Source of the DNA: an uncultured Prevotellaceae bacterium
GTDB lineage: Bacteria; Bacteroidota; Bacteroidia; Bacteroidales; Bacteroidaceae
Reading direction: 5' to 3'
DNA: 44,674 nt
NCBI GenBank assembly: GCA_900320565.1
Contig: ONSR01000007.1
Coordinates: 1 to 44,674, forward strand
Position numbers and translations under genes: made by a program. The notes under the pieces were generated by a model that was given only the letters and a program-made list of their open reading frames with translations, searched no databases and had not been told where the DNA came from. Below are positions 8,650 through 44,674 of this stretch, in pieces (position 1 is the first letter of the stretch; each line of letters begins with the position of its first letter).

Positions 8650-8715
8650 ACCTTACCAAAGGAATGCTAATACCTTGGCCAATGAATACTAATTCCTTGA
8701 CCAAGGTATTATAGT
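8650..8715. repeat. Three-unit 22-bp palindromic array (ACCTTnnCCAA type)
   Basis: Units begin at 8650, 8672 and 8694, exactly 22 bp apart. Each reads ACCTT (TCCTT in the third)-NN-CCAA followed by a GNAT-like segment and, in the first two, CTAAT. Units two and three together form a 14-bp stem (8669-8682 with 8697-8710, one mismatch), so the array could also terminate the convergent nrdG and M60 transcripts. Confidence 0.8.
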
Positions 8716-8752
8716 GTTTTGAGAAAGGTATCTGCAATTATTCTTTGCTCCC

Positions 8753-11700
8753 CTACTTCATCAGGAACTTCTTGCCGCCACGGATGTAGATGTGGCCTGG
8801 CTTGAGGTCGGTGACGCGACGGCCTGTGAGGTCGTATGTTTCATTGACCATTGACCGTTGACCATTGACCATTTCCTCTTCCTGGACAGCCTCGATGCCA
8901 TCGATTATCTCGTCCGTGAGGTCGCCCACAATGGTGCCGAAGGTTGCCCACTTCGATGCCTGATACTTCGAAAGCGCGCTGGCATAGACATGAATCGTGG
9001 GATTGCTGTTGAAGATGTAGTCCGAGAGGGTCGGCGGGGTTAGCGCTTTGACATAGACATCCTTGACGGGCGAGTTGTAGAAGACGCCCTGACTCAACGA
9101 GTTGACCTTCTTGCCGATGATGACTGTCGTAAGTCTGTCGCTACCGCCAAAGGCTTCGAGACCAATCGTCGTGACGGCATCGGGAATATCTATCATTCCG
9201 AGTCCGGAGAAGCGGAAGGCTCTGGCGCCTATCTTGGTTATCGTGAGCGGCAAACGCATCGAGACGAGTTTCTTGAAGCTGTCGAAGGCATAGTCACCCA
9301 TCACATTGAGGGTGGTCGCATAACTCGAATAGTAGTAGCCGCCGCCGGTGGTTATCTTGGCACCCATGAGGTCGATCGACTGGAGGTTCCCCTCGCTGAT
9401 GAGTTGGCGCAAACACTTTATATCCTTTGCGTTAATCCTGCCGCTTATGGTCGCCTTTATGACTGAAGGCGAGAGGGAATCTGCCAAGACGCCGGCTTTC
9501 GGCATTTCAACATACGCCGCGCCACTGCCGGCACGGGTGATTTTGTGCAGCGAGCCGTCGGCATCGAACGAGTAGAGCGTGAGACCTGTACCTGCACTTC
9601 TGGGAATACAGAAAGTCTTCGAGTTGGCAACAAACCGGAGGTCGTCGTTCCTATCGAGTGCCACGAAGCCCAAGCCTCCTTCGCCATCGAGGGCATAGAG
9701 CGAGTCAGCCTGCAGATAGGAATACTCCGAGGCGGAGCAAGCACCCGGCATATAGTCGGTGAACTGGCCTACGTCGCCGCACTGCCCGACCTGTTCCGAC
9801 TCGCGACGATGCTGCCCGGCAGTGGTGAGGAAGTCAGTCGTAGGCACATAGTCCACGCGGTCCTCGATGAAGATTATCTCGCGATTCTTGACGGGATACT
9901 TGGCTATCTCTGCCAGTGTCTTGTTGATGTCGGACTGCGTCACCGTCATCGAGTGAGCGCCGTAATCATTGACTGTATAGTTCGTGAGCGGCTCGAAGAA
10001 GCCCCATATGCGGAAGAAATCGGTCAGGTCCTCCCCTGCAATCTCACACACTTTGCGGACAAACTTCAGGCAGCCTGTGTTGGAGCCATACGGCGTCAAC
10101 GGGTCGTTGCGAAGGGCATTGAAGAGCGTCGGATAGAACGACGTGTTCCGCTGTGCAAGGTGGTAGTATAGGTAGAGTTGCCAATACATGCGCATCTGGC
10201 TGTTGAGCGGGCGAGTGAAGAAAGGTTCGTGGCGTGCATACTCGTCCATAATAGTGGAAAGCGGCGAACCACTCGAGGTGATGAGACCCGTGTGGAAGCG
10301 TACGTAGTTCGAGAAGAGGTTATTGGAGACCTCGGTTCCGCCTTCCACGGTGATTGGTCTCTGGTTGTTGTGCCCACTCTCATGCGCGCAGCACCAGTCG
10401 TCGAAGGTCGTTGGCTTGCCCACATTAAAGGAGCTTTCGACGCAACCCATCGTGTTATACATTGTCCGGAAGGATGCCGAGTTGGCAAAGCCGCCATCGG
10501 TCTCCTCCCCTTCTATAGCGAAGTTTGGATTGTTGTAATATAGTGGGAAGTACGACTCGCCACCCGTCAGGTAGTAGGGAGCGCCGGCACGTTTACCCGA
10601 GGCCACAGACTCGCTGATGCCTGCCAACTCCTTCTCCCAGACAGTCACGCTGTCGTACCAGCAGATGCTCTTGTCGATGGTTGTCGGCCAAACGCTTCTG
10701 TATGTGCTCGTCTTGAAGTTGAAGAGCGCCTGCCCGCCCTTGACGGTGAACCGTTCGTGCGTGGCTTTGGAGAGGATTGCCTTGTAGTCTGCGTTGCTCT
10801 TGCGTGCCACATCGTAGTAACCATTCACGATGCCTCCCTCGATGTGAATCTTTATGTCGGGCCATTCGCCGAGGGTCTTGGTCATTGCCTTCGTGTCGGC
10901 CGTATAAATAATATAGAAGAGGGCATTCGTTTTGCCGTCCACAACGTTCAGTCCCTTCTTGAGCATCTTGCCCTGCTTGGCAGAAGAGACGAGGTCGTTG
11001 CCTGCACAACCGGCTATGTATAGCGTGGCATCCGATGGGATGTCGCTGTCCACGAAGACGTACAAGGGGTCGCTGTCTGCTGTGTAAATGCCGGTCGGAT
11101 TGCCCATGAAGGAGCCTCCGGTAGTCCTCAACTTACTGTTCCAGTAGCCGGCATCGCTGTAGGGCTTGTAGGCGTGGATGCGGAAGTCCTTCTCGTAGGC
11201 TGCCCAATCTTCGTTCTTCAGCTTGAGGGCAATGTTCACCATATACTCCGGCATACCCGCTTCGACGAGGCTCTGCGTCAACTGCTCATCGCTCATCGAC
11301 TGGAACTCGACTTTCAACTGAGTGCATGCAACGTCCTCGAAGAAGTTACCAGCCTGCTCGTTGACGATGTCGCTATAGTCCGACTCCTCTGGATAATAGT
11401 TCTCCAACTTGCCGACAATGCTGCCATACTGGCTCCAGCTCGATGCCTTATAGTCTTCGAGAACACTGGAATAGACACGAATCGTCGGCCTGGCCGTGAA
11501 CATGTAGGCATCGAGCGAAGGCGGTGTCTTGGGCTTCACGGAGACAGTCGTGATGGCGGACGAGTTGTAGAAGACAGCCTGGTCGAGTCTGGAGACCTTC
11601 TTGCCGATGACAATCGTCTTGAGGGAACTGCAATTGGCAAACGCCGCGCCGCCCAAGTGAGTGACGCCGTCGGGAACTTCCACCTTGGTGATGCCTGACA

Positions 11701-12091
11701 ATTGGAAGGCTGACTTGCGAATGTCGGTGACTGTGGTGGGCAGAGTTACGCCAGTGAGTTTGGAACAGCTATAGAACATCGAGTCGCCGATGACGTCGTT
11801 TTCCGTGTAGTGCGAGCTGAAATATGCCTCGCCGCCACTCACGATGCGAACATCGGAAAGGTCGAGCCTCGACAGTCTCCCCGCACTAATCCTTTCGCGG
11901 ATGGACTTTATGTCTGTGCCGTTGATGTAGCCCGTCAGCTTTACCTGCCGCGCTGCTGTCTCCAATAGGGATGGTAAGGTTCCAGCCGATGCCACATGAA
12001 TCGTGTCTTCCGCCCAAGCGTTCGACACAAAGAAGCACGCCAAACCGACCATCGTCGCACGAAACATTCCCTTGAACCGTATGTCTTTCAT
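8753..12091 (-). CDS. Secreted M60-like zinc metallopeptidase with flanking LRR domains (copy 1)
   Basis: The product is 1112 residues from the chosen start. A signal peptide (MKDIRFKGMFRATMVGLACF... ending NAWA) is followed by a BspA-type LRR_5 domain (about residues 35-235). The M60-like/enhancin-type region is centred on the zinc motif HESGH at about 570-574, with the third ligand probably the E of ITVEGG. A second LRR_5 domain follows (about 880-1070), and the tail TYDLTGRRV to GGKKFLMK resembles a type IX sorting tail. M60 peptidases cleave glycoproteins such as mucins. ATG 12091 is preferred over an upstream ATG at 12127 because AGGAGG lies just before it. Copy 2 is immediately upstream on the same strand. 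A 7-bp tandem repeat (8842-8876) encodes MVNGQRSMVN just before the tail. Confidence 0.85.
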   Translation of the reverse strand: MKDIRFKGMFRATMVGLACFFVSNAWAEDTIHVASAGTLPSLLETAARQVKLTGYINGTDIKSIRERISAGRLSRLDLSDVRIVSGGEAYFSSHYTENDVIGDSMFYSCSKLTGVTLPTTVTDIRKSAFQLSGITKVEVPDGVTHLGGAAFANCSSLKTIVIGKKVSRLDQAVFYNSSAITTVSVKPKTPPSLDAYMFTARPTIRVYSSVLEDYKASSWSQYGSIVGKLENYYPEESDYSDIVNEQAGNFFEDVACTQLKVEFQSMSDEQLTQSLVEAGMPEYMVNIALKLKNEDWAAYEKDFRIHAYKPYSDAGYWNSKLRTTGGSFMGNPTGIYTADSDPLYVFVDSDIPSDATLYIAGCAGNDLVSSAKQGKMLKKGLNVVDGKTNALFYIIYTADTKAMTKTLGEWPDIKIHIEGGIVNGYYDVARKSNADYKAILSKATHERFTVKGGQALFNFKTSTYRSVWPTTIDKSICWYDSVTVWEKELAGISESVASGKRAGAPYYLTGGESYFPLYYNNPNFAIEGEETDGGFANSASFRTMYNTMGCVESSFNVGKPTTFDDWCCAHESGHNNQRPITVEGGTEVSNNLFSNYVRFHTGLITSSGSPLSTIMDEYARHEPFFTRPLNSQMRMYWQLYLYYHLAQRNTSFYPTLFNALRNDPLTPYGSNTGCLKFVRKVCEIAGEDLTDFFRIWGFFEPLTNYTVNDYGAHSMTVTQSDINKTLAEIAKYPVKNREIIFIEDRVDYVPTTDFLTTAGQHRRESEQVGQCGDVGQFTDYMPGACSASEYSYLQADSLYALDGEGGLGFVALDRNDDLRFVANSKTFCIPRSAGTGLTLYSFDADGSLHKITRAGSGAAYVEMPKAGVLADSLSPSVIKATISGRINAKDIKCLRQLISEGNLQSIDLMGAKITTGGGYYYSSYATTLNVMGDYAFDSFKKLVSMRLPLTITKIGARAFRFSGLGMIDIPDAVTTIGLEAFGGSDRLTTVIIGKKVNSLSQGVFYNSPVKDVYVKALTPPTLSDYIFNSNPTIHVYASALSKYQASKWATFGTIVGDLTDEIIDGIEAVQEEEMVNGQRSMVNETYDLTGRRVTDLKPGHIYIRGGKKFLMK
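8842..8876. repeat. Heptad repeat in coding sequence (CATTGAC)
   Basis: Units at 8842, 8849, 8856 (CGTTGAC) and 8863, plus a partial fifth, repeat every 7 bp. They lie inside M60 copy 1, in the linker before the C-terminal tail. Copy 2 has a different, non-repetitive linker at this place. Confidence 0.85.
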
Positions 12092-12098
12092 ATCTTTT

Positions 12099-12104
12099 CC
12101 TCCT
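12099..12104 (-). promoter_or_regulatory. Shine-Dalgarno AGGAGG of M60 copy 1
   Basis: A perfect AGGAGG ends 7 bases before ATG 12091. Strong Shine-Dalgarno sequences are rare in Bacteroidota, and this one decides the start over the in-frame ATG at 12127. Confidence 0.6.
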
Positions 12105-12163
12105 ATCTTCTTTTTTCTTGCTGCCAACCTGTCGTCAGCATGCTTAGCAGTGTGTGTGTTACT

Positions 12164-12251
12164 CCCCTATAGAGGAGTTGTCATTCCCCTATAGGGCGTT
12201 GCTCATTCCCCTATAGGGCGTTGGCTCTTCCCCTATAGGGCGTTGGAAGAC
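12164..12251. repeat. Four-unit 22-bp array with CCCCTATAGGG core
   Basis: Units start at 12164, 12186, 12208 and 12230, exactly 22 bp apart. Three contain CCCCTATAGGGCGTTG unchanged, and the first is a variant (CCCCTATAGAGGAGTTG). The centre CCCTATAGGG is a 10-bp palindrome. The array fills most of the gap between the two M60 genes. Its last unit overlaps a GGGCGT/ACGCCC hairpin whose T-run points to the plus strand, toward no gene. The same unit recurs at 30579. Confidence 0.9.
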
Positions 12252-12260
12252 GCCCTCTTT

Positions 12261-15200
12261 TTACTTGGTCATCATGAACTTCTTGCCGCCACGGATATAA
12301 ATGCCACCCGGCTTCAGCTCGGTTACTCTGCGGCCCATCAGGTCGTAAGTAGCATCGCCGAATACAGAGGTTTGAGCATCGTTCGTATCTTGGTCTGCTT
12401 CAATCGCTTCAATGCCATCGGCCATCTCATCAGTAAGGTCGCCCACGAGGGTGCCGTATTGGTCCCAACCTTTATCCTTATATGCGCTGAGGGCACTCTC
12501 GTAAACATGGATGGTGCGGTTCTTATTAGTGAAGAGATATCCTGCGACGCCCGTAAGAGTTGGCGGTGTGGTAGCCTTGATATAGACTTCCTTGGCGGGT
12601 GTGCTATAGAAGACGCCTTGGTCCATCGTCTTGACGCCCTTACCAATAAGCACAAGATTCAGTTGGTCGCAATAAGCGAAAGCATCGCCGCCTACCGAAG
12701 TTACCTTATCAGGAATTACAATCTGCTTGATGCCAGACCTGGAGAAGGCATTCGAACCGATTGCGGTAATCGTTTCAGGCAACTTGATGGAGGCAAGCTT
12801 CTTGAAGCCATGGAAACAATAGTTGCCCATGTTGTTCGAGGACGTGACATAGCTCTGGTAATACGCTCTGCCGCCCGCAACAACTCTGACATCCGTAAGG
12901 TCGATGCTCAGGAGGTTGCTCTCGTTGATGAGCTGACGCATGTACTTGATGTCGGTTGCGTTAATTCTTCCTGTAAGGACAAGCTTGATGACCTGGTCGT
13001 TCGTCAGCGTTGCCTGGAGTCTTCCAGCGGTTGGAACATTGACAATCTCTGTGCCGCCGCCCAACTTCTTAACTTCGTGCAGGCTGCCATCGGCATCATA
13101 AGAATAAATGGTAAAGTCTTTCCACGGCTTTCCCACAATCGACGGGATGCAAATGTTCTTGGCATTGGCGGCAAACTTAATGTTGTCGTCAGCATCGAGC
13201 ATCAGGAAGCCCAAGCCTCCGCTGCCCTCGAAAGCAAAGAGAGAATCAGACCACAGATAGCCATACTCCGATGGCTCGTAGTTCTCTGCCCAATAATCCC
13301 AGAACTGACCAAGGTCGCCACATTGACCCACCTGGTCTGAGCCGTTCCTCTGCTGACCCACGGGCGTGAGGAAACCTGTCGAGGGGACATAATCGGCACG
13401 GTCTTCCACGAAGATAATCTCGCGATTCTTCTTCTCGTATTTCGCAATATAGTTCTTCGTGGACGTAATGTTGGTATTGAGGACGGTAAGGTCGTGCATG
13501 CCATAATCCTCAATCTTTGTACCCTTCTTGATGGGCTCGAAGAATCCCCATATATTGAAGAAGTCTGTCAGGTCCTCCTTAGCCACATCGCAGACCTTAC
13601 GCACGAACTTCAAGCCGCCGCTATTGTTGTTCGAGGCGTTATAAAGCGTCAGCGGGTCTTTGCGAAGTGCCTTGAAGAGTTCCGGATAGAAGGATGTGTT
13701 CTTCTGCCCCAGGTGGTAATAGAGGTAGAAGTCCCAATACATGCGAAGCCTACTATTCACGTCCCTGAAATAGAACGGCACGCGACGAGCGAATTCGTCC
13801 ATGACGGTAGCCAACGTCGAGCCGCCAGATGCATTGAGCCCATCAAGGTAGCGAACGAGGTTCGAGAAGACGTTGTTCGACGCCTCGGTGCACCCCTCCA
13901 CGTTGATAGCCCTCTGGTTGTTGTGGCCGCATTCGTGACCTGCGCACCAGTCGTCCATGTTGGGATTCAGAGCATTGAGGCAATTCTTGATGCAGTCAAT
14001 GCCGTTATAGCTCGTCCTGTAAGGCGTGGAATTAGCATAGCCTGCATCCTCTGGCTCACCCTCAATAGCGAAGTTCGGGTTGTTGTAGTAGAGGGGATAG
14101 ATTGCTTCGCCGCCCGTCAGATACCACGGGTAGCCTGCCTTCTTGCCGGTCGCCACAGCCTCGGTCATACCCATCAGATCCTTCTCCCATACAGCAACGC
14201 TATCGAACCAGCAGATGCTCTTGTCGATGGTGTTGGGGAAGACGGTCTTGAAGGAAGCCGTCTTGAGGTGGAAGAGGGAATGTTCGCCGCGAATAGTGAA
14301 GCGACCAAGTGTGGATGCATTGCGGAGGGCTTTGTACTCGGCGTCGCTGTGACGGCTGATGTCGTAGTAGCCATTCACCTTGCCGCCCTCGATATGTATC
14401 TTGATGTCGGGCCATTCGCCAAGGGTCTTGGTCATGCTCTTCGTGTCGGCTACATATACAACATAGTAGAGGGCATTCTTCGTGCCGTCGATGATGTTGA
14501 GGCCTTTCGTCAGTTTGGTTCCCGTCTTGGCATTCGTGACAAGCTGGTTATCCACGCAGCCAGCCAGGTAGAGCGTTGCACCGCTCGGCACATCATCATC
14601 TACGAAGACATATATTTCGTCGCCATCGTTCTGGGCATAGATGCCTGTAGGGTTGCCCATATAGGAGCCGCCGCTGCTCATCATCTTGTCGTTCCAGTAG
14701 TTGGCGTCGCTGTAGGGCTTGTAGTCGTGGATGCGGAAATCCTGCTCATAGCTTGCCCACGTCTGGTTCTTAATCTTGATGGCAATGCTGACCATAAAAT
14801 CAGGCATGCCGACAGCAGTGAGGGCTGCCGTCAGTTCCTCGTCGCTCATCGCCTGGTATTCGGCCTTCAGCTGGGTGCAGGCAGCATCCTCGAAGAAGTC
14901 GCCGCACAGCATCCCCACCACTTCGTTGGGGTCGAGCTCCACGGGATAGGTATTCTCCAAACCGCCGTAGATGGTGCCATAATCCTTCCAGCTGGATGTT
15001 CTGTAATCGGCTAAAGACTCGCTATAGACATAAATCTTCGGGCTCGAAGAGAAGAGGTACGCTGGCGTGCTGGGAGGCGTGGCAGGCTTCACGTAGGCTG
15101 TCTTGACGTTGGAGCTGTAGAAGACGCCTTGGTAAAGCTGGCTCACCTTACGCCCGATGACGACAGTCTCCAGCGCGCTGCAATAGGCGAAAGCGTCGCC

Positions 15201-15641
15201 GCCAAGCACCCTGACCGTGCTGGGGATGTCGATGGCCTTCAGTCCCGTTCTGGCGAACGCATTGGTCTGGATGGCCGTGATGCCTTGGGGCAGCACCATC
15301 GATTCGAGTTTCGAGCATTCGTAGAACATTTGTTCGCCTATCTCGTCGGCTTTCGTCACGAAGCTACCTGTATAGGCCTCGCCGCCAGCCACGATGCGAA
15401 CGCCCGACCAGTCGAGCTTCGTCACCGTGCCCGCCGAGACGAGCTGACGCATGTACTTAATGTCCGAACCGTTGATGACACCCGTCACCTTCAGCTCCTT
15501 ATCGGTGCTCGTAAGCAGGGAGGACAGCGTACCGGCCGTCTCGACGTTGATTTCTGTTACGGCCCAGAGGTTGGCAGACAACAGACCACAGACAACAGAC
15601 AATAGTAGTCTAAGGCATTTTGTGTAGATTTTCCGATTCAT
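12261..15641 (-). CDS. Secreted M60-like zinc metallopeptidase with flanking LRR domains (copy 2)
   Basis: The 1126-residue product is a paralogue of the adjacent protein, alignable along its length. It has a signal peptide ending NLWA, an N-terminal LRR_5 domain (about 50-245), an M60-like region with the zinc motif HECGH at about 569-573, a second LRR_5 domain (about 880-1075) and the tail TYDLMGRRV to GGKKFMMTK. Many positions shared by the copies lie in the peptidase region, for example GNPTGIY, EWPDIKIHIEGG and PLYYNNPNFAIEGE. It has its own promoter and is read before copy 1. The signal-peptide residues LLSVVCGLLS are encoded by a 7-bp tandem repeat. Substrate is inferred to be host or dietary glycoprotein. 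Confidence 0.86.
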   Translation of the reverse strand: MNRKIYTKCLRLLLSVVCGLLSANLWAVTEINVETAGTLSSLLTSTDKELKVTGVINGSDIKYMRQLVSAGTVTKLDWSGVRIVAGGEAYTGSFVTKADEIGEQMFYECSKLESMVLPQGITAIQTNAFARTGLKAIDIPSTVRVLGGDAFAYCSALETVVIGRKVSQLYQGVFYSSNVKTAYVKPATPPSTPAYLFSSSPKIYVYSESLADYRTSSWKDYGTIYGGLENTYPVELDPNEVVGMLCGDFFEDAACTQLKAEYQAMSDEELTAALTAVGMPDFMVSIAIKIKNQTWASYEQDFRIHDYKPYSDANYWNDKMMSSGGSYMGNPTGIYAQNDGDEIYVFVDDDVPSGATLYLAGCVDNQLVTNAKTGTKLTKGLNIIDGTKNALYYVVYVADTKSMTKTLGEWPDIKIHIEGGKVNGYYDISRHSDAEYKALRNASTLGRFTIRGEHSLFHLKTASFKTVFPNTIDKSICWFDSVAVWEKDLMGMTEAVATGKKAGYPWYLTGGEAIYPLYYNNPNFAIEGEPEDAGYANSTPYRTSYNGIDCIKNCLNALNPNMDDWCAGHECGHNNQRAINVEGCTEASNNVFSNLVRYLDGLNASGGSTLATVMDEFARRVPFYFRDVNSRLRMYWDFYLYYHLGQKNTSFYPELFKALRKDPLTLYNASNNNSGGLKFVRKVCDVAKEDLTDFFNIWGFFEPIKKGTKIEDYGMHDLTVLNTNITSTKNYIAKYEKKNREIIFVEDRADYVPSTGFLTPVGQQRNGSDQVGQCGDLGQFWDYWAENYEPSEYGYLWSDSLFAFEGSGGLGFLMLDADDNIKFAANAKNICIPSIVGKPWKDFTIYSYDADGSLHEVKKLGGGTEIVNVPTAGRLQATLTNDQVIKLVLTGRINATDIKYMRQLINESNLLSIDLTDVRVVAGGRAYYQSYVTSSNNMGNYCFHGFKKLASIKLPETITAIGSNAFSRSGIKQIVIPDKVTSVGGDAFAYCDQLNLVLIGKGVKTMDQGVFYSTPAKEVYIKATTPPTLTGVAGYLFTNKNRTIHVYESALSAYKDKGWDQYGTLVGDLTDEMADGIEAIEADQDTNDAQTSVFGDATYDLMGRRVTELKPGGIYIRGGKKFMMTK
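15574..15601. repeat. Heptad repeat in signal-peptide coding sequence (ACAGACA)
   Basis: Four 7-bp units at 15574, 15581, 15588 and 15595 (GCAGACA, ACAGACC, then ACAGACA twice) lie in the codons for the hydrophobic core of the M60 copy 2 signal peptide. Confidence 0.85.
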
Positions 15642-15670
15642 ATTTGTGTTAGTTTATAGTTTCTCGCACG

Positions 15671-15701
15671 CAAATTTACTTTTTTCTGATGAACCCTGCA
15701 A
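15671..15701 (-). promoter_or_regulatory. Bacteroidota-type promoter for M60 copy 2
   Basis: Minus-strand TAAATTTG (15678-15671) is preceded by TTG (15701-15699) with 20 bases between. The leader is about 25 bases. Further upstream (15742-15778) an imperfect hairpin, TGCCC.TGAGG pairing with CCTCA..GGGCA, has no assigned role. Confidence 0.75.
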
Positions 15702-15801
15702 GAGAAAGGGGCAAAAATAACAGGAAAAGGGGAAGAATGAATGCCCTGAGGTTCAGGTCAGCGCCTCATCGGGCAAAGGGTACCGGGGCTTTATTCACAA
15801 C

Positions 15802-15829
15802 AAAAAAAGGAGCCTCAACGGCTCCTTTT
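15802..15829 (-). terminator. Intrinsic terminator of the DUF177-purN operon
   Basis: AAAAGGAGCC (15805-15814) and GGCTCCTTTT (15820-15829) form a perfect 10-bp stem with a 5-base loop. Read leftward it ends in TTTTTTT and starts 20 bases after the purN stop codon. Confidence 0.88.
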
Positions 15830-15848
15830 ATTATTCTACTTCTTCTCT

Positions 15849-16424: not shown

Positions 16425-16459
16425 TTGTCCGTTGTCTGTTGTCTGTTGTCCGTTGTCAG
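16425..16459. repeat. Heptad array filling the era-purN gap (TTGTCTG)
   Basis: Five units (TTGTCCG, TTGTCTG, TTGTCTG, TTGTCCG, TTGTCAG) run from the base next to the purN ATG to the era stop codon. The era TGA (16458-16456) lies in the last unit. Confidence 0.9.
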
Positions 16460-18415: not shown

Positions 18416-18418
18416 TCT

Positions 18419-18598: not shown

Positions 18599-18640
18599 AA
18601 TTCGATTTACTATTTAATTATTTACGATTTAGTGTTTACT
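18599..18640. repeat. Heptad-like array between DUF177 gene and rpmF
   Basis: Read leftward, units of the type TAAATCG/TAAACAC/TAAATAA/TAAATCG recur at 7 bp, with one 8-bp step, across the end of the DUF177 gene and the 23-base gap. The TAA stop (18624-18622) lies inside the array. Confidence 0.6.
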
Positions 18641-19107: not shown

Positions 19108-19114
19108 CGGGCTG

Positions 19115-23605: not shown

Positions 23606-23682
23606 GAGAAAACTCCAGTACTCTCGTGTGAGTACTGGAGTTTTCTCGTGTAGGTACTGCAGTACTCACACGAGAGTACTGG
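23606..23682. repeat. 22-bp palindromic array with AGTACTGCAGTACT core and 18-bp stem
   Basis: Units start at 23609, 23631, 23653 and 23675, exactly 22 bp apart. Each has a 14-bp AGTACTGCAGTACT-like core and an 8-bp spacer (CTCGTGTG, or its inverse CACACGAG). Bases 23606-23623 and 23630-23647 form a perfect 18-bp stem with a 6-base loop. Bases 23616-23637 recur inverted and unchanged at 23661-23682. It lies 38 bases after the GH43 gene and could end its transcript, though no T-run follows the stem. Confidence 0.85.
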
Positions 23683-23766
23683 CGATGCGACTGCATACGT
23701 TTGAAAGGTTAACATTATTTTTCTTCTCGGATTAAACTTTTCGTCGTTTCAGGCGTCTTAATAAGT

Positions 23767-26682: not shown

Positions 26683-26701
26683 CTAAGCATATAAACAAAT
26701 T

Positions 26702-26780
26702 AGGCACGTCTAATTCGCAAACTAGACATGCCTAATTCATCAACGAGGCATGCCTAATTCGCAAACTAGGCGTGCCTCGC
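26702..26780. repeat. Four-unit 22-bp array with AGGCATGCCT core
   Basis: Cores start at 26702 (AGGCACGTCT), 26724 (AGACATGCCT), 26746 (AGGCATGCCT, a perfect palindrome) and 26768 (AGGCGTGCCT), exactly 22 bp apart. They are joined by 12-base linkers, AATTCGCAAACT twice and AATTCATCAACG once. Neighbouring cores pair to make two hairpins with the same loop. The array fills the gap between two convergent genes and may serve as a bidirectional terminator. Confidence 0.9.
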
Positions 26781-27887: not shown

Positions 27888-28259
27888 CTATCCTATGGGA
27901 AAGCGTTCTTTTACGAGGGAAGATTCGCCGAAATTGATAAGCAATGATAGTTTGAAACCTGCAACTTTGGCATAATTTATGGCTTGTGAGCGATGCACAT
28001 CATCCAGTTCCCTGACTGCTTTTAGTTCGACGATTATCTTGTCGTAGCAAATAAAGTCTGGGATGTATGTCCCTTCTAATACGACACCTTTATATGTTGC
28101 ATGAATCTCCTTCTCTCGTTCGAAAGGTATTCCCTGTTCAGCAAACTCTATTGCCAAAGCTTCTTGGTAAACCTTTTCAGTGAACCCCGGACCAAGAACA
28201 CGATGCACTTTCATCGCTGCGCCAATGATTTGGTAAGTCTCGTCTTCGTATCTAAGCAT
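27888..28259 (-). CDS. GxxExxY family protein (PD-(D/E)XK-like)
   Basis: The 123-residue product carries the defining G25-x-x-E28-x-x-Y31 motif (GFTEKVY) after the conserved 'ETYQIIGAAMKVHRVLGPG' start. It also has a nuclease-like core: D68 in IPDFICYD and E78-L-K80 in VELKAV, as in PD-(D/E)XK folds. Family function is unknown; nuclease activity is possible from the residues but unproven. The gene interrupts the korA-korB pair, in the same direction, and is bracketed by inverted 9-bp arrays, which suggests insertion as a cassette. Confidence 0.85.
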   Translation of the reverse strand: MLRYEDETYQIIGAAMKVHRVLGPGFTEKVYQEALAIEFAEQGIPFEREKEIHATYKGVVLEGTYIPDFICYDKIIVELKAVRELDDVHRSQAINYAKVAGFKLSLLINFGESSLVKERFPIG

Positions 28260-30556: not shown

Positions 30557-30622
30557 TCAGCAGGGAGGGTTTGAACATCCCCTATAGGGCGTTGACGATT
30601 TCGGCATAGGGCGTTGAGAAGA
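30557..30622. repeat. 22-bp array sharing the CCCCTATAGGGCGTTG unit
   Basis: CCCCTATAGGGCGTTG at 30579-30594 is identical to the unit at 12186. Exactly 22 bp later, TCGGCATAGGGCGTTG (30601) keeps the right half. A more decayed unit (TCAGCAGGGAGGGTTTGA) starts 22 bp before, at 30557. Confidence 0.8.
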
Positions 30623-34228: not shown

Positions 34229-34232
34229 CATT

Positions 34233-36098: not shown

Positions 36099-36121
36099 CA
36101 ATACTTCTAAATACTTATATT

Positions 36122-39100: not shown

Positions 39101-40366
39101 ACGCAGCCCAACATCCTTGCCGGCAAGACGGCAACCGTGCGTCACTACAAGGCCGACTATTCTTACGAGGCAGCCTACAACACCTACAACGTTCAGACGC
39201 TAACCGATGGCGACAAACAGGCAGAAGGCCTACTCGAGATTGAGGACTTCTCCACTCACAAGCGCGACCTCTGGGCCATCTTCGAAGCACCGACATCTGC
39301 CGGATGGAATCTCTCCAAAGTGAACATCTACCTGCCCGACGGCAACTACGGAGAGAACGATAACGGCAACGAGGGCACCGTCACCAAGACCGTCGAGATT
39401 TGTGTCGGCAACGACCTGACGTCCATGCAGACCATCAAGACCTTCAACGACCTGGACGGCATCTCCGAGTTGTCCTACATCCTGCCCGAGTACAAGAACA
39501 CTAAGTACCTGGCCATCGTCTCTACCCTGAACGCCTACTTCTACCCCTCAATGGCCGAGGTTGAAGCCTTCGAGCAATACGAGAGCGCCATCCCCGTTAA
39601 CGCGGCGGTAGAGATTGCCAACTGGCCCGACGACGTTCTGGCGGAAGGCACACCCACCACATCCTACACCGATGCCACGCTCGACAATCAGGGCTGGTGC
39701 CTCTTCACGCCAGCTGTCAAGACAGCCGGAGCGCTGCCCATCACCGACGGCAAGCTGACGACCAACAGCGGCATAGAGTACACCATCAACCCATCTGCCA
39801 AGAATGCACTGGTGCTCAAGACCATAAATTCCCCCAAGAAGATTGAGTTCACGGAACCTGCTTTCTGCGAAGAACTTTACTTCATCGTCATCTCGGCAGA
39901 AGGTACATCCACGCTCAAGGCTGCTGTAGGCTACGAGGACGGCACATCAGGACCTGCCCGGACGTTCTCCATTAGCGACTGGTACGGTAACAGCAGCGGG
40001 CAGGGAGAAGCCATCTACGGCCTCGACCGCATCAAGCGCGACAGCGGCGCTGGCTACAGTGCCGACCATTTCGACGGACGCACACGCTTCCGCATCTTCG
40101 AATACGCACTGCCTGCCGACCGCAGCAAGCAGACGAACAGCATCACCTTCACCTCCACGACATCGGGCAAGATACCGACCATCCTCGGCATCGCCAAGAA
40201 GTCCTACGCACCCGACCCAGACGGCATCGAAAAGCCTGAGGCAACAGGAAGGGACAAGATAGTCGGCATCTACTCTATCGGAGGCCAGAAACTGGCAGGA
40301 CTGCAGCGCGGCATCAACATCATCCGCTTCGCTGACGGATCTGTCAGGAAGATTACCAAGAGGTAA
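36122..40366 (+). CDS. Secreted GH85-like endo-beta-N-acetylglucosaminidase, multidomain
   Basis: The 1414-residue product has a signal peptide (cut near GFS-QQ). Residues from about 90 to 450 match the GH85 barrel: YQPTYWQYMDKLVYW, then the catalytic YYGFDGWFINEETGG with N192-E193-E194, corresponding to the family's N-x-E pair (oxazoline-stabilising Asn and acid Glu), and later DWYHSG and WRWWID. GH85 enzymes cut the chitobiose core of N-glycans. A beta-sandwich region follows, then a PKD-like segment (about 660-745), an F5/8 type C (discoidin-like) domain (about 760-890), and further modules. The last 34 residues (VGIYSIGGQKLAG to KITKR) resemble the tail of the LRR protein at the window start. 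Third gene of the SusC/SusD operon. Confidence 0.87.
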   Translation: MNLKQFSLSAALLLTATMGFSQQPFNVCCHPQDIRNWTPGSNPDDAFNVAKVPLQARFKEPTLMKANANQYYEGQICNSTILYPTCSLCPSQGELNNFLGYQPTYWQYMDKLVYWAGAASEGIINIPPAGSTDAAHQSGVKSLGNIFFPPAAFGGTQTWVREMLAQEGGHYPMAVKLYEMAKYYGFDGWFINEETGGGSQSEWEAFCRDFYAAAMADDPNTQMEIQWYNASRYPNTGILKTHVNTSQFLEYGAVGDYRGYASQLNCTEAQTFSKIYAGIELAQAGHLGWTSALNSAMPTTGHVGSLDLFCPETKIWEDPAKRAFKSASDCHGETAYPIAKTVFDNEEDMWVNTNSNPTSIPTSGFPGVSSRVLERSVITSMPFVSDMSVGNGKHRFVKGEIQGTTDWYHSGMQSVLPTWRWWIDRGSGLTVSIDWDNAWNVGSSFKISGTLSSGDHVMRLYKTQIPVVNGGVLRLVYKSSRRVTMQAKLSTESSVTPNVSLTGTATEVNGWTVCDFDLSSLNGNTIYMIGFNVRSTANLSNYSLNIGQVAVLPVDYTPAPVQVTDLSTTSTLGEESGDIRITWKYTWNNNFDHFDIYTQTMDGQKTLVGQTRDEGFYIPPFDRNGSDSYISVFVVPVMKDGVQQAPSELQVNYPAPTAPKVTYSVSPKSYILVGETVTVTANCTGHPTGYLWTLPESVELAGGDLTSQSVTVRAKQEGKISLTVAATNEVGTTEYTAEAFDVFADAAAQNAVYNIIKGKTVVSYSGSTNSTEVPGKIIDGVTNPSATSSKWCNISPDNEVVFDAEGAYRIYGFVIYDGNAGPESGVDQIDRYTIELSQDGVNWQTVVDNNTPGNEKISIKSDYIAPVKARYVRLRPHVNGTLRIWEFEVYGKEDNNLTMTVDPKELTLAAGSDSDIKVRYDLGGDKREDYFVCTATSATGNSTIGNITEDVATQTFTVPIHAGYAYGVDNITITINNGGAYQERTLTLTIDSDTQPNILAGKTATVRHYKADYSYEAAYNTYNVQTLTDGDKQAEGLLEIEDFSTHKRDLWAIFEAPTSAGWNLSKVNIYLPDGNYGENDNGNEGTVTKTVEICVGNDLTSMQTIKTFNDLDGISELSYILPEYKNTKYLAIVSTLNAYFYPSMAEVEAFEQYESAIPVNAAVEIANWPDDVLAEGTPTTSYTDATLDNQGWCLFTPAVKTAGALPITDGKLTTNSGIEYTINPSAKNALVLKTINSPKKIEFTEPAFCEELYFIVISAEGTSTLKAAVGYEDGTSGPARTFSISDWYGNSSGQGEAIYGLDRIKRDSGAGYSADHFDGRTRFRIFEYALPADRSKQTNSITFTSTTSGKIPTILGIAKKSYAPDPDGIEKPEATGRDKIVGIYSIGGQKLAGLQRGINIIRFADGSVRKITKR

Positions 40367-40390
40367 CGTCCGGTTTCTTATCGGCTCTAC

Positions 40391-40430
40391 AAATCCCCGT
40401 CGTCCTGTAAAGGACAGCGGGGATTTTTTT
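40391..40430 (+). terminator. Intrinsic terminator of the SusC/SusD/GH85 operon
   Basis: AAATCCCCG (40391-40399) pairs with CGGGGATTT (40418-40426), with an inner TCCT/AGGA pair, and runs into seven T. Confidence 0.88.
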
Positions 40431-40440
40431 GCTGCAATGA

Positions 40441-40542
40441 CAGCCCCGCACAACACATCGACGCACCCAAATCGACATAGGGGATTGGCCTTCGATGAAG
40501 GGCGTATATGTGCATGACGGCAAGAAGGTAGTCATCAAGTAA
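40441..40542 (+). pseudogene. Remnant C-terminal tail of a secreted protein
   Basis: A 33-codon open stretch ends KGVYVHDGKKVVIK and TAA, the same kind of C-terminal tail as those of the M60 proteins here (GGIYIRGGKKFMM). Nothing upstream in frame resembles a protein: the frame is closed by TGA at 40438, inside the region next to the operon terminator. It is most simply the last piece of a deleted gene. Confidence 0.5.
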
Positions 40543-40566
40543 CTTACCAAAAAGAAATACTCTTGC

Positions 40567-40603
40567 AAAAAAGGGCCGGTTCCACAAGGAATCGGCCCTT
40601 TTT
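40567..40603. terminator. Bidirectional intrinsic terminator
   Basis: AAAAAAGGGCCG and CGGCCCTTTTT with an inner TTCC/GGAA pair form a strong hairpin with A/T runs on both sides. It lies 11 bases after the stop of the leftward NagX-like gene and would also stop rightward transcripts. Confidence 0.88.
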
Positions 40604-40613
40604 CGTTAGCTGT

Positions 40614-41720
40614 CTATACCTTCAGGAAGATGCGATTGCGGTAGAGAACATAGAGGAACAGCCAGCAAACAGCAATATAGGCCACTTGCGTAAAGAAGGC
40701 CCAAGAGTTCTCAGGCATCAGTTTCACCAGACCGCCAAAGAGTTTCTCAGACGTATAGGAGAACCTGATGAACTTCTGGGCAAGATAGATGGTGATGGAG
40801 TTCATGCCGATAACCGTGAAGAAGAACGTCCACCGGCGCCACTGCAATACATCTATTATATAATAGAAGAGGGCGAACATCAGCACAGAATAAGCGCCGA
40901 CGACCATCACGAACGAACTTGTCCACATCTTCTTGTTGATGGGGAACACTTCGTTCCAAAGCAAACCGATTGCCAGCATGATGATGCCGGCAAGTATCAT
41001 CCAAAGCACCGTCTTGCCCCCTGCTCCTTGCTCCTTGCTCCTTTTCTTCACCAATTCCCCTGTAAACATACCGAGCAGCGCTGTGCCAATAGCAGGAACG
41101 ACACTCAGGATGCCTTCGGGGTCGATGTTTCCATAATAGATTCGTCCTGGCAAGAGGATGCGGTCCACATAGCCCACGATGCTGCCCTGGGCGCTGAAGA
41201 TGTCCTCTCCTCCACCATCAGGAGCAGGAATGAAGCCAGCCACGAGCCAATAACCGACAAGCAGCAGAGCTGTAATGCCCACACGAGCCTTCCAACCGGT
41301 ATGAATAAAGATGAGGGCTGCAAACATCCAAGCAAGACCGATTCGTCCAAGAACGCTGGCATAGCGAAGGTTCTCGAAATCAAAATCGAGCAGCCCGTTA
41401 TAGACAACGCCCAAGAAGACAAGCATCAAGCCACGCACGATAACTTTCCTGTGAATGGCCCAAGCCGAGCGTCCTTTCTGACGTTGTTTTGCCAAAGAGA
41501 ACGGGAAGGAGATGCCTGCGATGAAAAGGAACAACGGGAAGATGGTGTCGTGATGCCGCAGCCCGTGCCACTCAACGTGATCCATCTGCTCAGCAAGTGC
41601 TTGTGTAAACGAACAAGGGAACCACTCAGCAAGCGCCACAAGCAGTGCCGCGCCACCCATGATGAACAACATATCAAAGCCACGAAGGGCATCGATGGAG
41701 AGCAATCTTTCGTCTTTCAT
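40614..41720 (-). CDS. NagX/DUF5009-like multi-pass membrane protein (acyltransferase-like)
   Basis: The 368-residue protein has about ten hydrophobic segments and starts RLLSIDALRGFDMLFIMGG, the motif of the heparan-alpha-glucosaminide N-acetyltransferase-like family (DUF5009, NagX in bacteria). HHDTIFPLFLFIAGISFPFSL is the second landmark. Relatives occur in GlcNAc-use loci, which would fit release of GlcNAc by the neighbouring GH85, but the link is inferred. A 7-bp repeat encodes RSKEQGAGG in a loop between membrane segments. Confidence 0.82.
   Translation of the reverse strand: MKDERLLSIDALRGFDMLFIMGGAALLVALAEWFPCSFTQALAEQMDHVEWHGLRHHDTIFPLFLFIAGISFPFSLAKQRQKGRSAWAIHRKVIVRGLMLVFLGVVYNGLLDFDFENLRYASVLGRIGLAWMFAALIFIHTGWKARVGITALLLVGYWLVAGFIPAPDGGGEDIFSAQGSIVGYVDRILLPGRIYYGNIDPEGILSVVPAIGTALLGMFTGELVKKRSKEQGAGGKTVLWMILAGIIMLAIGLLWNEVFPINKKMWTSSFVMVVGAYSVLMFALFYYIIDVLQWRRWTFFFTVIGMNSITIYLAQKFIRFSYTSEKLFGGLVKLMPENSWAFFTQVAYIAVCWLFLYVLYRNRIFLKV
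41017..41044. repeat. Heptad repeat in NagX-like coding sequence (CTCCTTG)
   Basis: CCCCCTG, CTCCTTG, CTCCTTG and CTCCTTT follow at 7 bp and encode a hydrophilic loop. Confidence 0.75.
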
Positions 41721-41841
41721 CTCTTACTAATTCAATATACAATTTACTATTTATTCTATAGGAGTTAGAAGAAGTTAGAAGAAGATATGCCGCTTCAGCG
41801 GCGAAGATAGAGGACGAATGCTTGGGGCGAGCCAGGAGGAG

Positions 41842-43500
41842 TCAGTACTTGAACGAGCTTCCTCCTGCAAACTCGCGGAGCAAGCTTGAAGGCGGCACCT
41901 GGTCGCCTGGGATGCCGTTGAAGTAGGCCAGGAACTTGCGCAGACGACTCGCCTCAGCATACTCGATGGCGCGTTCCGGCACTTGTTCGAGGATAGGCAT
42001 CACCTGCTCGCGTATCACGCCCAACTCGTAGAGCAAGGCACTGTTGAAGGTCGCATCGGCAAATCCTTGGAAGGGGAATATCCATTTCTCCTCGCCTGCG
42101 CTGACGCTTGGAGCGCGCTTGATGGTCTCGACAGCAGAGTAGCCGCGATGCTTGTAGTCGCGAAGGATGCGACGCAGCAAGCGGATGTCGGCCGTTGGAA
42201 TGTGATTGTGGTCGTCGAGCTGTATGGTGGTGAGCGTCGAGACATATATCCTGTACTTCTTCTCCTCGGGTATCTGTTGCGTCAGGATGGGGTTGAGAGC
42301 ATGATTGCCCTCAAGGATGATGACATCTTCGGGACCTATCTTCAGCTTTCTGCCCTCGAAGACACGCTCGCCCTTCTTGAAGTCGTAGCGCGGAAGCTCC
42401 ACCTCCTCGCCATTCAGCAAAGCGTTCATCTGTTTGTTGAAGAATGTCGTATCGACTGCTCCGATGCACTCGAAGTCATACTCTCCATTGGCATCCTTCG
42501 GCGTATCGACACGGTTGACGAAGTAGTCGTCGGTGCTGATGGTATGAGGTCGCAAGCCACAAGCCATCACGAGGACTGCCAGTCGCTTGGCCGTCGTTGT
42601 CTTACCGCTACTGCTTGGGCCGGCAAGCAAGACGATGCGGGCACCTCGTTCTGCAATCTCGTCGGCTATGTTACTGAGTTTCTTCGACTGAAGCGCCTCG
42701 CTGACATTGATGAGGTCGGTTGCATGCCCCTCCTTAATGGCATAGTTCAACTCGCCAACCGTCTGCACGCCAAGTATCTCCTGCCATCTGTGGTGCTCCC
42801 TGATGACGTCGAGCATCTTCTTGCTCTGGTCCATTATCTCTTCCAGTTGCGACGGGTTCTTCATGGAAGGAGCACGAAGCAGCATGCCGTCGTAGAACTT
42901 GATGAGGTCGAAGAGGTGCACCTGACTGGTGCGGGTGAGCAGGCAACTGTAGAAGTAATCGACTGTGTCGCCTAACTTATAATAATATGTATAGAGGTCG
43001 TCCTGGCTTTCCAGCAACTGCACCTTGCTCTTCATGCCTCGCTTCTCGAACATCTCGATGGCCTCTTCGATGGGGCACTGTATGCGATGTATGGGCATAT
43101 CGGCATCGATGATTTCCTGCATGCGCCCTTTGATGCGACGGACATCCTCGTCTTCCACAGGACGCCCCAGGCGAAGCTGGCAGTAATAACCACGGCACAC
43201 GGAGCCGCCAACGAGGAGTTGGGCATCGGGATAAGTATCTTCGACAGCCTTCGCCAAGATGAAGAAGAGCGTGCGGGTATAGGTGCGCATACCGCTTTCA
43301 TCAGAGAGCGACAGGAACTCCACATCCTTGTTGTTGTAGAAGCGGTAGTTCATGCCCTGCACCTTATTGTTGACGCGAGCAGCCACAGGCCCATAGTCCA
43401 TGTGGAAGTTCGCCTGGGCAAAGGCTTCATAGAGATTACTGCCAAAAGGCACACTTATCCTCTTTCCATTATTACGACAGCGTATTCTTAGTTCACTCAT
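41842..43500 (-). CDS. Nucleoside (uridine-like) kinase with N-terminal TGS/ThrRS-like domains
   Basis: The 552-residue product resembles the Bacteroidota 'nucleoside kinase' family: an N-terminal TGS-like domain (about 1-65), a threonyl-tRNA-synthetase-like second domain (about 70-190) and a C-terminal phosphoribulokinase/uridine kinase domain with P-loop GPSSSGKT at 294-301 and STDDYF soon after. It should phosphorylate a nucleoside such as uridine; the role of the N-terminal domains is unknown. ATG 43500 is preferred over a TTG at 43506 that lies in repeat DNA. Upstream on the same strand is the sirtuin gene, with only 7-bp repeats between. Confidence 0.87.
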   Translation of the reverse strand: MSELRIRCRNNGKRISVPFGSNLYEAFAQANFHMDYGPVAARVNNKVQGMNYRFYNNKDVEFLSLSDESGMRTYTRTLFFILAKAVEDTYPDAQLLVGGSVCRGYYCQLRLGRPVEDEDVRRIKGRMQEIIDADMPIHRIQCPIEEAIEMFEKRGMKSKVQLLESQDDLYTYYYKLGDTVDYFYSCLLTRTSQVHLFDLIKFYDGMLLRAPSMKNPSQLEEIMDQSKKMLDVIREHHRWQEILGVQTVGELNYAIKEGHATDLINVSEALQSKKLSNIADEIAERGARIVLLAGPSSSGKTTTAKRLAVLVMACGLRPHTISTDDYFVNRVDTPKDANGEYDFECIGAVDTTFFNKQMNALLNGEEVELPRYDFKKGERVFEGRKLKIGPEDVIILEGNHALNPILTQQIPEEKKYRIYVSTLTTIQLDDHNHIPTADIRLLRRILRDYKHRGYSAVETIKRAPSVSAGEEKWIFPFQGFADATFNSALLYELGVIREQVMPILEQVPERAIEYAEASRLRKFLAYFNGIPGDQVPPSSLLREFAGGSSFKY

Positions 43501-43501
43501 C

Positions 43502-43578
43502 TTCAATATTCAATTTTCAATTTTCAATCTTCAATCTTCAATTTTCAATGTTCAATCTTCAATGTTCAATGTTCAATA
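43502..43578. repeat. Eleven-unit heptad array (TTCAATN) between sirtuin and kinase genes
   Basis: Eleven consecutive 7-bp units TTCAATN run without a break from 43502 to 43578, varying only in the last base. The array contains the sirtuin stop codon (43561-43559), encodes that protein's last residues NIEH and reaches to one base before the kinase ATG. Confidence 0.95.
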
Positions 43579-44260
43579 ATTTCATCAGTTCCTTCATCCC
43601 TTCGCTTGCGCCCTTCATGATGTGATGGACAGGCACATCGCTGTTCCACTGGACAGGCTTCGGGTCGATGAGGTAGATGGGTGTGCCGGGACGGACACAT
43701 CTGGTCAGCCCTGCAGCGGGATAGACATTGAGGCTCGTGCCGATGACGATGAGCATATCAGCCTTCTCACATTCCTCCACAGCTCGGTCTATCTCGGGTA
43801 CAGCCTCGCCAAACCAGACGATGAAGGGCCTGAGCTGGCTGCCGTCGCCAGCAAGGTCGCCCATCTTCACTTCGATATGTTCTGGGTCGAGCGTCTTGAT
43901 GTAGCGCGGGTCATTGGGCGAGCGGCTGCTCGTCACCTTCATCAGTTCGCCGTGCAGGTGAATGACGTAGCTGCTGCCGGCACGTTCATGCAGGTTATCT
44001 ACATTCTGCGTCACAACCGTCACGGCATGTTTCTCTTCAAGCTTTGCCACAAGCTCGTGCCCGAGGCAAGGCTTCGTACCAAGCAATTCCTTACGGCGCA
44101 CATTATAGAACTCCGTAACGAGTTTCGGGTTGCGAGCCCAGCCTTCAGGCGTCGCCACATCCTCTACGTTGTACTGGTCCCACAGTCCGCCATTGTCGCG
44201 AAAAGTACTGATACCGCTTTCAGCGCTCATACCCGCTCCAGTCAACACTACTATTCTCAT
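43559..44260 (-). CDS. cobB: Class III-type sirtuin (NAD-dependent protein deacylase)
   Basis: The 233-residue product has GAGMSAESGISTFRD (8-22), QNVDNLH (85-91) and the catalytic H103 in HLHGE, then LRPFIVWFGE and GTSLNVYPAAG. Y52 and R55 in FYNVRR match the YxxR pair that in class III sirtuins (SIRT5, CobB) recognises succinyl- or malonyl-lysine. The two CxxC zinc pairs usual between HGE and LRP are absent; no Cys occurs there. ATG 44260 gives the standard N terminus, and a longer reading from 44395 adds 45 unrelated residues across the promoter. Confidence 0.9.
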   Translation of the reverse strand: MRIVVLTGAGMSAESGISTFRDNGGLWDQYNVEDVATPEGWARNPKLVTEFYNVRRKELLGTKPCLGHELVAKLEEKHAVTVVTQNVDNLHERAGSSYVIHLHGELMKVTSSRSPNDPRYIKTLDPEHIEVKMGDLAGDGSQLRPFIVWFGEAVPEIDRAVEECEKADMLIVIGTSLNVYPAAGLTRCVRPGTPIYLIDPKPVQWNSDVPVHHIMKGASEGMKELMKLLNIEH

Positions 44261-44288
44261 AAATGCCCGTTTTTTGATTAAAGATACG

Positions 44289-44296
44289 CAAATATA
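44289..44296 (-). promoter_or_regulatory. -7 box of the sirtuin-kinase operon
   Basis: Minus-strand TATATTTG fits TAnnTTTG and lies 28 bases upstream of the sirtuin ATG. No clear -33 element at the usual distance. Confidence 0.6.
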
Positions 44297-44387
44297 GCAA
44301 AAAATATGATTCGAGGAATGCAAAAGCGAAGAAAAAGGGAAGAAAAGCAAGAAAAGCGGAAAAGTATCGTCTCGCAAAGACTTCCCA

Positions 44388-44541
44388 AACTTCACTGCAG
44401 AAGCTTTAGCTCGACGCCAGTCAAGTTCGTAAACTTCACTGCAGAAGTTCGTAAACTTCTCTGCAGAAGTTGGCTAACTTCTCTGCAGAAGTTCGTAAAC
44501 TTCACTGCAGAAGTTTTAGCTCGACGCCAGTCAAGTTTTTA
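44388..44541. repeat. Seven-unit 22-bp palindromic array (AACTTC-N6-GAAGTT-N4)
   Basis: Units start at 44388, 44410, 44432, 44454, 44476, 44498 and 44520, exactly 22 bp apart. Five have AACTTC, a centre ACTGCA or TCTGCA, and GAAGTT (GAAGCT in the first). The units at 44410 and 44520 share a divergent form beginning CTCGACGCCAGT and ending CAAGTT. The pair 44498+44520 therefore repeats the pair 44388+44410, a higher-order duplication. It lies about 90 bases upstream of the sirtuin promoter. Confidence 0.93.
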
Positions 44542-44585
44542 CGTTTTTCTATAGCCTTGTTTTCTAACCACTTGTGAAACTCGGA

Positions 44586-44674
44586 AAATCCTGCAGAGGA
44601 TTTGCCCAAATCCTGCTGTGGATTTGATGAAATCCTCCTGTGGATTTTGCCAAATCCTCACGTCGATTTTAGGG
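44586..44674. repeat. 22-bp palindromic array (AAATCC-N6-GGATTT-N4), runs off window
   Basis: Units start at 44586, 44608, 44630 and 44652, exactly 22 bp apart. The first three have perfect 6-bp arms AAATCC and GGATTT, and the fourth has CGATTT. The first unit starts 66 bp (3 x 22) after the last unit of the preceding array, so both may lie on one 22-bp lattice. The array may continue past the window end. Confidence 0.9.

Follow-up and report, generated by a model that had tools for sequence, protein, structure and literature searches.

The 44,674-nucleotide contig ONSR01000007.1 of an uncultured Prevotellaceae bacterium (assembly GCA_900320565.1), the whole of which is called the window here and is C47 in our numbering, carries intergenic arrays of short palindromic units repeated at 22 bp. 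The source genome amounts to 2.63 Mb in 122 contigs and is 89% complete, and relatives of the organism inhabit animal guts. For comparison, a larger sample of 61 stretches of the source genome (993,088 bp) was used, together with related genomes; labels with L denote sequence stretches and labels with G genomes. Tandem Repeats Finder called arrays of period 22 in the window at 8646-8704, 12163-12245, 23622-23663, 26696-26777, 44423-44515 and 44586-44658, and gave the last a period of 44 as well, reaching 44669. The preliminary description, made from the letters of the window, had listed seven such arrays outside genes. Six of them are those called, and all six lie outside the large open reading frames (ORFs) of the gene map, with short mechanical ORFs overlapping some ends. 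The seventh, at 30557-30622, received no call and is weak; by eye it shows a core CCCTATAGGG at 30580 followed by a degraded one, CATAGGG, at 30605, with a distance of 22 bp from core to core. The arrays are as follows, with no strand assigned to any of them.

8646..8704: 22-bp array of about 2.7 units (TAATACCTTGACCAATGAATAC) between convergent ORFs, with 78% match and 5% indels; a singleton family in the sample
12163..12245: family A array of four units ATTC-CCCTATAGGG-CGTT-NNNN, in which unit 1 is the variant CCCCTATAGAGG; the family has 25 arrays in the 993-kb sample
23608..23691: family D array with AGTACTGCAGTACT dyads
26696..26777: array of AAAC-NN-GGCRYGCC-NN-ATTC at period 22, in a loose AAC-N12-RTT superfamily together with family B
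30580..30616: degraded family A array, two cores at 22 bp, by eye
44379..44541: sub-array E1 (GAAGTT-NNNN-AACTTC-WCTGCA) within a multi-copy composite element, from Tandem Repeats Finder and genome matches
44586..44674: sub-array E2 (AAATCC-N6-GGATTT-GNNN) within this composite element, which is cut off by the end of the contig

Units with a different sequence (GACTGGCGTCGAGCTAAAGCTT, minus strand) break up E1 without loss of register, and several other copies of the composite element, called E below, run on into a third sub-array (AGGGACGCGTCCCTATGAGGAG). Only the family A array at 12163 lies between the genes at 8753-12127 and 12261-15641, which encode adjacent proteins with BspA-type leucine-rich repeats and an M60 (enhancin-like) peptidase domain.

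The sequence of each array had been described as specific to its locus, which does not hold. The arrays at 12164 and 30580 are one family, the unit at 23606 recurs, those at 44388 and 44586 both belong to a single composite repeat, and only the array at 8646 is a singleton in the sample. In that sample, 105 of 130 arrays (genic-labelled ones included) fall into 11 dispersed clusters of 29, 25, 12, 10, 9, 7, 4, 3, 2, 2 and 2 members. The other 25 are singletons, some perhaps of another kind.

Period, symmetry and families of the 22-bp units

A genome-wide histogram of repeat periods, proposed earlier as a check, has a peak at 22 bp. Across 335 intergenic segments totalling 87,687 bp, 98 period-22 arrays were counted versus 2 in 20 dinucleotide-preserving shuffles together, and the neighbouring periods of 20, 21, 23 and 24 gave 3, 3, 0 and 1 arrays in the same segments. 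Intergenic sequence of the 993-kb sample held 97 arrays of period 22, 8 of period 44 and 1 of period 66, with 3, 4, 1 and 1 at periods of 20, 21, 23 and 24; the density is about 100 arrays per Mb, mostly intergenic. Another 22 arrays of period 22 and 2 of period 44 overlap ORFs; the genic label of these 22 is tentative, as it comes from a simple ORF caller (longest ORFs of at least 80-110 amino acids). Self-match of intergenic sequence has maxima at lags of 22, 44, 66 and 88 bp; the genic columns of this comparison are inflated by runs of N unless masked, as they were in a version to lag 60. Unit numbers lie between 2.5 and 4.5 in 80 of the 97 arrays. The family A core CCCTATAGGG forms 113 neighbouring pairs genome-wide, and among the pairs listed (about 50 places) all have a 12-base spacer, that is, a 22-bp pitch, where 5-30 bases were allowed. 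Near-perfect arrays of the source genome have a period of 22 in 10 of 19 cases, and six of the other nine have periods of 15-20 bp. A second, separate peak lies at period 7/14 and consists of heptads such as ATCTTCA (window 43499-43577; 54 intergenic and 53 genic-labelled arrays in the sample); it is the sole other large peak beside 22.

The units are palindromic, as had been described, and in 100 of the 107 arrays with symmetry the axis passes between neighbouring bases, compared with 115 vs 112 for shuffled arrays. When tested against column shuffles, 34 of 64 period-22 arrays were palindromic at P<=0.05, and at least 7 of 9 complementary pairs were reached by 10 of 36 clusters, where 1.5 are expected. 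With the axis picked from inner bases alone, complementarity of the outer bases was 0.35 vs 0.25 ± 0.01. Complementarity is maximal at 3-5 bp and at 9 bp from the axis with a dip between them, which led us to drop the model of a continuous 7-bp stem; the dip is shallower if each cluster counts once. Moreover, in 208 distinct units anchored on CACG, the arms pair in 881 of 1,456 cells vs 699 ± 13 after a shuffle that keeps composition but not relatedness.

The two largest families are B, AAC-arm-CACG-arm-GTT-linker with variable arms, and A, ATTC-CCCTATAGGG-CGTT-NNNN. With a strict anchor on family A, the 18 fixed columns agree at 94% within and 93% between arrays, and the free columns at 47% and 41%. 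A further family outside the window, f3 (e.g. L041:14689, L194:76 and L143:18905), repeats TTGCA-NN-TACATGTA-NN-TGCAA three times as a 66-bp trimer, with 18 invariant and 4 free positions among the 22 of each unit. In the 993-kb sample, all 18 fixed letters are present in 30 f3 units, and no unit with one to three mismatches occurs; another 20 carry 4 mismatches, and 5 of the 12 displayed from this group represent the same arrays read in a shifted register. Among the 138 f3 units from all sampled genomes, 124 are exact; the grouping of these units splits some arrays at shifted-register matches (35 of 54 groups have three units). Identity at the NN positions is 39% within and 42% between arrays in the source genome, and 38% and 36% in all genomes; in this comparison the conserved columns are at 100% by unit selection. 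Free positions of f3, and nearly those of A, are as different inside arrays as between them; thus these arrays appear old and constrained.

Solitary units are rare. In the source genome, a neighbour at 22 bp was found for 49 of 50 A sites, 77 of 86 A cores, 42 of 43 f3 units and 22 of 24 E1 units, with loose neighbour matching for A and E1, and the lone f3 unit lies at a contig edge. Exactly three units make up 20 of 22 distinct f3 arrays, and of the remaining two, one has four units and one has two. Five single f3 units were re-examined, and four proved to be shifted-register matches and one lay at a contig end.

Some arrays travel inside larger repeats. Element E has 50 matches in the source genome, and arrays of its three families share flanks in 10 of 12, 7 of 9 and 6 of 7 cases. 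In families A, B and f3, a flank common to the own family was found for 4 of 25, 5 of 29 and 0 of 10 arrays, respectively; 9 of 25 A arrays match the flank of some array of any family. A multi-copy noncoding repeat of about 460-560 bp (L042:9545-10106, with copies in L045, L148 and L227-L235) also has a central 22-bp array. It carries inverted repeats AATGTAAGC/GCTTACATT near its ends, occupies 3 places in the source genome and 9 distinct places in G101, and a 14-bp spacer between two dyads is inverted between copies. Both this repeat and element E are carriers resembling miniature inverted-repeat transposable elements (MITEs).

Arrays in related genomes

The nearest named relative, RGIG4467 (L049, genome G101, also G141), is about 85% identical to the source genome over 12 kb of synteny. 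The 84 bp of the array at 23608-23691 are identical at the orthologous locus of L049/G101, where the flanks have diverged, and this identity, when set against the background of about 85%, may be a sign of selection. In L054, this intergenic gap is occupied by another 22-bp array, made of GGTTAACC dyads. The array at 26696-26777 is 76% identical to its L049 counterpart, gapless over four units, and the region of 30580 has another array in L049 (CAAATGCAACGTGTTGCGTTGG).

Nine arrays of the source genome, two of them window loci (23622 and 26696), were matched by their flanks to G101 sequence. At L042:18426 the register is kept and the arms are changed (59% identity, no gaps). At L038:11928 the source genome has three family A units and G101 one, and a neighbouring palindromic seed has four to five 22-bp units in G101 vs one in the source genome. 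Contraction in G101 also explains this pair, because the seed and the internal spacers differ. The family A array at L033:4690 has no CTATAG counterpart in the G101 stretch, where what is by position the same intergenic region holds one other 22-bp array with GTTTC-NCACGA-GAAAC dyads (L225:6548-6613). Alignment with G101 shows no counterpart array for L040:12347, and a 420-bp spacer at L038:5239 is missing in G101. Since they lie inside the multi-copy repeat of about 460-560 bp, the arrays at L042:9840 and L045:17417 are not orthologues of G101 arrays. Thus, across species, arrays are identical, have arms swapped in register, are contracted, give way to a different array of 22-bp pitch, or are absent. 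The comparison of unit numbers that had been proposed for each locus, carried out here between species, showed a difference at L038.

The pitch of 22 bp is common among relatives but, contrary to the earlier description, is not the sole one. A set of 80 named loci, the korB neighbourhoods (1.38 Mb), contained 18 intergenic arrays at period 22, 3 at 21, 4 at 23 and 2 at 44. Diverged intergenic arrays in other Bacteroidales (1.97 Mb, partly chosen around known matches) numbered 33 at 22, 9 at 21 and 6 at 23. Among the family A pairs listed, all are at 22 bp in six of seven genomes (the source genome and five relatives). G105 (L081, L140 and L141) has five arrays at 23 bp (GGTCTGAGTCAGACC dyads) and none at 22 in 81 kb. 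In the seventh, G152, the same core has a 23-bp pitch (the CCTATAGG core at L237:9791 and L238:4736) and other arrays are at 22, so that the idea of one pitch per genome was rejected. No 22-bp array was found in 40 kb each of G010 and G016. Families are patchy among congeners: B occurs in 9 of 37, the source genome included, and in 0 of 24 genomes from other families of the order; f3 occurs in 16 and A in 7 of 139 congeners.

Two observations from this survey concern other matters. A gene of the PD-(D/E)XK nuclease family (PF13366) lies at 27888-28259 of the window, between the two subunit genes of a 2-oxoacid:ferredoxin oxidoreductase. Record L096 is named Roseburia and has a Bacteroidales-type korB locus at 86% identity; it therefore looks mislabelled or contaminated.

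Proposed operator rows, known systems and rival explanations

We tentatively prefer to read the arrays as rows of cooperative operators for several sequence-specific, dyad-binding proteins, set at a pitch of two helix turns and partly carried in MITE-like repeats. This reading draws on the fixed pitch, the even-axis dyads, the invariant letters around free ones, the signs of age in f3 and A, and the rarity of single units. An array would comprise two to six complete dyad-symmetric putative operators, 22 bp or about two helix turns apart, so that dimers on neighbouring sites would share one helix face and touch. Several sequence-specific proteins, probably one per unit family, would bind stably only to a row. 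The rows, mostly intergenic and spread over the chromosome, may nucleate a nucleoprotein filament that serves chromosome organisation or the regulation of neighbouring genes. Unit number shifts by whole units, and arrays at one locus can swap arms or families; some arrays move inside MITE-like elements, and most of the two largest families stand alone. Protein binding, its cooperativity and a chromosomal role are what we infer from these features. Rows of phased sites with cooperative binding are known in the 22-bp iterons of R6K and in the end sites of TnsB and MuA. The preliminary description had suggested a cooperative, weakly sequence-specific architectural protein. Cooperative symmetric docking at two turns fits the pitch, the even axis and the rarity of solitary units; the weak specificity fails, since 18 of 22 positions are invariant in f3 and the fixed columns of A agree at 93-94%, and several sequence-specific factors are likelier than one loose architectural protein.

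A number of results weigh against operator rows. No cognate or candidate protein for the arrays was found. Indels are present in 26 of 97 period-22 arrays, a share similar to that of other tandem repeats (23/77), and with only 71 of 97 arrays free of them the earlier claim of no drift is too strong. Other tandem repeats are partly palindromic too (8 of 23 intergenic arrays of other periods and 9 of 35 genic arrays at P<=0.05), half-sites are often mosaic, and many units join half-sites from different families. Free columns agree better within than between arrays in B (55% vs 38%), E1 (52% vs 39%) and A when anchored loosely on CTATAG (55% vs 41%, with conserved columns at 91% and 85%), and local duplication has therefore shaped B and E1. 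G101 has three identical units where the source genome has one, 14 of 138 f3 units, all from other genomes, carry 1-3 mismatches, and the restriction of f3, A and B to few congeners would also be expected of a mobile repeat. In addition, unit 3 of f3 is often the reverse complement of unit 1. The NN positions of unit 1 complement those of unit 3 at 83 of 140 positions in 35 trimers, compared with 57 ± 6 after shuffling (maximum 75 in 1,000) and 64 ± 5.5 after shuffling within genomes (maximum 81), a pattern that suggests a hairpin of 66 bp or an exchange by templating, and not independent operators. A 66-bp hairpin state or template switching may thus occur in f3.

The closest known system is BrickBuilt, a 23-nt minisatellite/MITE of the oral relative Porphyromonas gingivalis, and the paper on it (PMC4596501) also cites direct repeats of 41, 23 and 22 nt in strain W83. 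BrickBuilt is likewise an intergenic Bacteroidales repeat with short, spacerless tandem units (23 nt there and 22 here, with 23 in relatives) at many loci, and its imperfect units have conserved and non-conserved positions, with dyad symmetry mentioned (PMC4596501). The arrays go beyond it. BrickBuilt has one unit family, a leader, a tail, IS5-like terminal repeats and up to 22.8 units at 19 loci (PMC4596501), whereas here there are at least 11 multi-member clusters, 2-6 units per array and about 100 arrays per Mb; a shared leader and tail of its type are present in element E and absent from most A and B arrays and from all ten f3 arrays compared. An intergenic repeat of the Prevotella lineage has 177 and 184 copies in two strains, lacks terminal inverted repeats and is patchy in related species; it is described as a single 188-bp repeat. 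Repetitive extragenic palindromic (REP) sequences and REPINs are likewise extragenic palindromes with many copies, clusters and several families per genome (PMC3116915); unlike them, the arrays here are contiguous at 22 bp, and the source genome has no match to the REP-associated tyrosine transposase (RAYT). BldC also binds a row of sites in helical phase as a cooperative filament (PMC5859096), but its sites are 9-bp direct repeats bound head-to-tail, while those here are dyads at 22 bp over the chromosome. Identical repeats with unique spacers, as in a CRISPR array, were not found, the units being contiguous at 22 bp with four free columns in f3 and A. Among the papers listed by searches of the open-access PMC literature, none was seen to describe 22-bp palindromic arrays with several families. 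REP elements with their RAYT reportedly carry GTAG/CGTC tags.

The strongest rival of the operator reading is a BrickBuilt-like mobile repeat. The arrays would then be non-autonomous, selfish elements, a Bacteroidales counterpart of BrickBuilt/MITE or REP, moved by a transposase in trans, with the array as body and without host function. The published precedent of BrickBuilt (PMC4596501), the two MITE-like carriers, the patchiness among congeners and the agreement of two f3 copies of the source genome at five of six NN dinucleotides speak for it. Element E and the repeat of about 460-560 bp agree with it, whereas arrays that stand alone do not, for flanks are mostly unshared in A, B and f3, and f3 has no cloud of decayed copies in the source sample. 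A RAYT as mover was rejected, since the Y1/RAYT family (PF01797) has no match in the source genome at 89% completeness (other transposases were not sought); G104 likewise has no match though it has 22-bp arrays, and 7 of 14 genomes searched have one. On balance we consider this explanation rather unlikely. Less probable, and in our view improbable as a general account, is amplification by a ruler, in which an enzyme would nick both strands, some 11 bp from the dyad on its two sides, and fill-in and ligation would duplicate exactly 22 bp, so that any recognised palindrome grows. We know of no such enzyme. It would explain a fixed pitch with different sequences and an even axis, and both unit-number differences at L038 are of 22 bp, the near-perfect, presumably young arrays are mostly at 22, and B, E1 and loosely anchored A show local likeness. 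Against this, recent duplication has left no trace at the free positions of f3 and only a slight one in A under the strict anchor, pitches of 22 and 23 bp coexist in G152, and contraction in G101 accounts for L038 as well. The preliminary description had offered one mechanism that copies any palindrome present, which suits some arrays (the three identical units in G101, the ten near-perfect arrays, B and E1), whereas f3 and the greater part of A do not fit it; a ruler-type duplication enzyme is possible above all for young arrays, B and E1.

RNA hairpins, acting as terminators or stabilisers of 3' ends in transcripts, are very unlikely. The units could fold, f3 units 1 and 3 pair, 37 of 55 arrays between co-directional genes are nearer the upstream stop, and divergent gaps were the poorest in a smaller first sample, with arrays in 4 of 29, compared with 30 of 82 co-directional and 10 of 27 convergent gaps. 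In the larger sample, however, 55, 18 and 15 arrays lie between co-directional, convergent and divergent genes and 17 at edges, set against 129, 52 and 51 gaps that measure 100 bp or more. The strand bias of the CACG loop seen at first (18 vs 4 units) was gone with more arrays (11 sense, 7 antisense and 1 tie relative to gene direction), and these counts together with the array context do not favour terminators. The 208 CACG-anchored units have 97 G-T and 118 A-C mismatches over seven pairs, and thus no RNA-type wobble preference. Strand-specific, wobble-tolerant hairpins were not found, an Rfam search of the window gave nothing at gathering score except one tRNA, and hairpins would not need an exact pitch. 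Ordinary minisatellites arising from replication slippage are the least probable of all: the unit-number difference at L038 and the ordinary frequency of indels would suit them, but the histogram has its maximum at 22 and is nearly empty at 20, 21, 23 and 24, and slippage accounts neither for dyads nor for fixed and free positions.

The operator reading can be carried further, in a form that we regard as doubtful. In some Bacteroidales, the arrays may be chromosome-wide phased nucleation sites, from which several paralogous or unrelated proteins polymerise, each on its own rows of 22- or 23-bp palindromes, one of them on a 66-bp site that mostly has three units and combines invariant with hypervariable letters. 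This would be a multi-component bacterial chromatin in which families of sites arise, are exchanged and disappear between species and the pitch of two turns persists.

A fixed two-turn pitch across unrelated palindromes that rarely occur as lone units offers a handle on DNA organisation or regulation in common gut bacteria. The f3 site, with 18 fixed and 4 free letters and mostly three units, is a ready bait for its putative protein. Moreover, replacement of arrays from lineage to lineage lets one ask whether selection keeps the pitch or the sequence.

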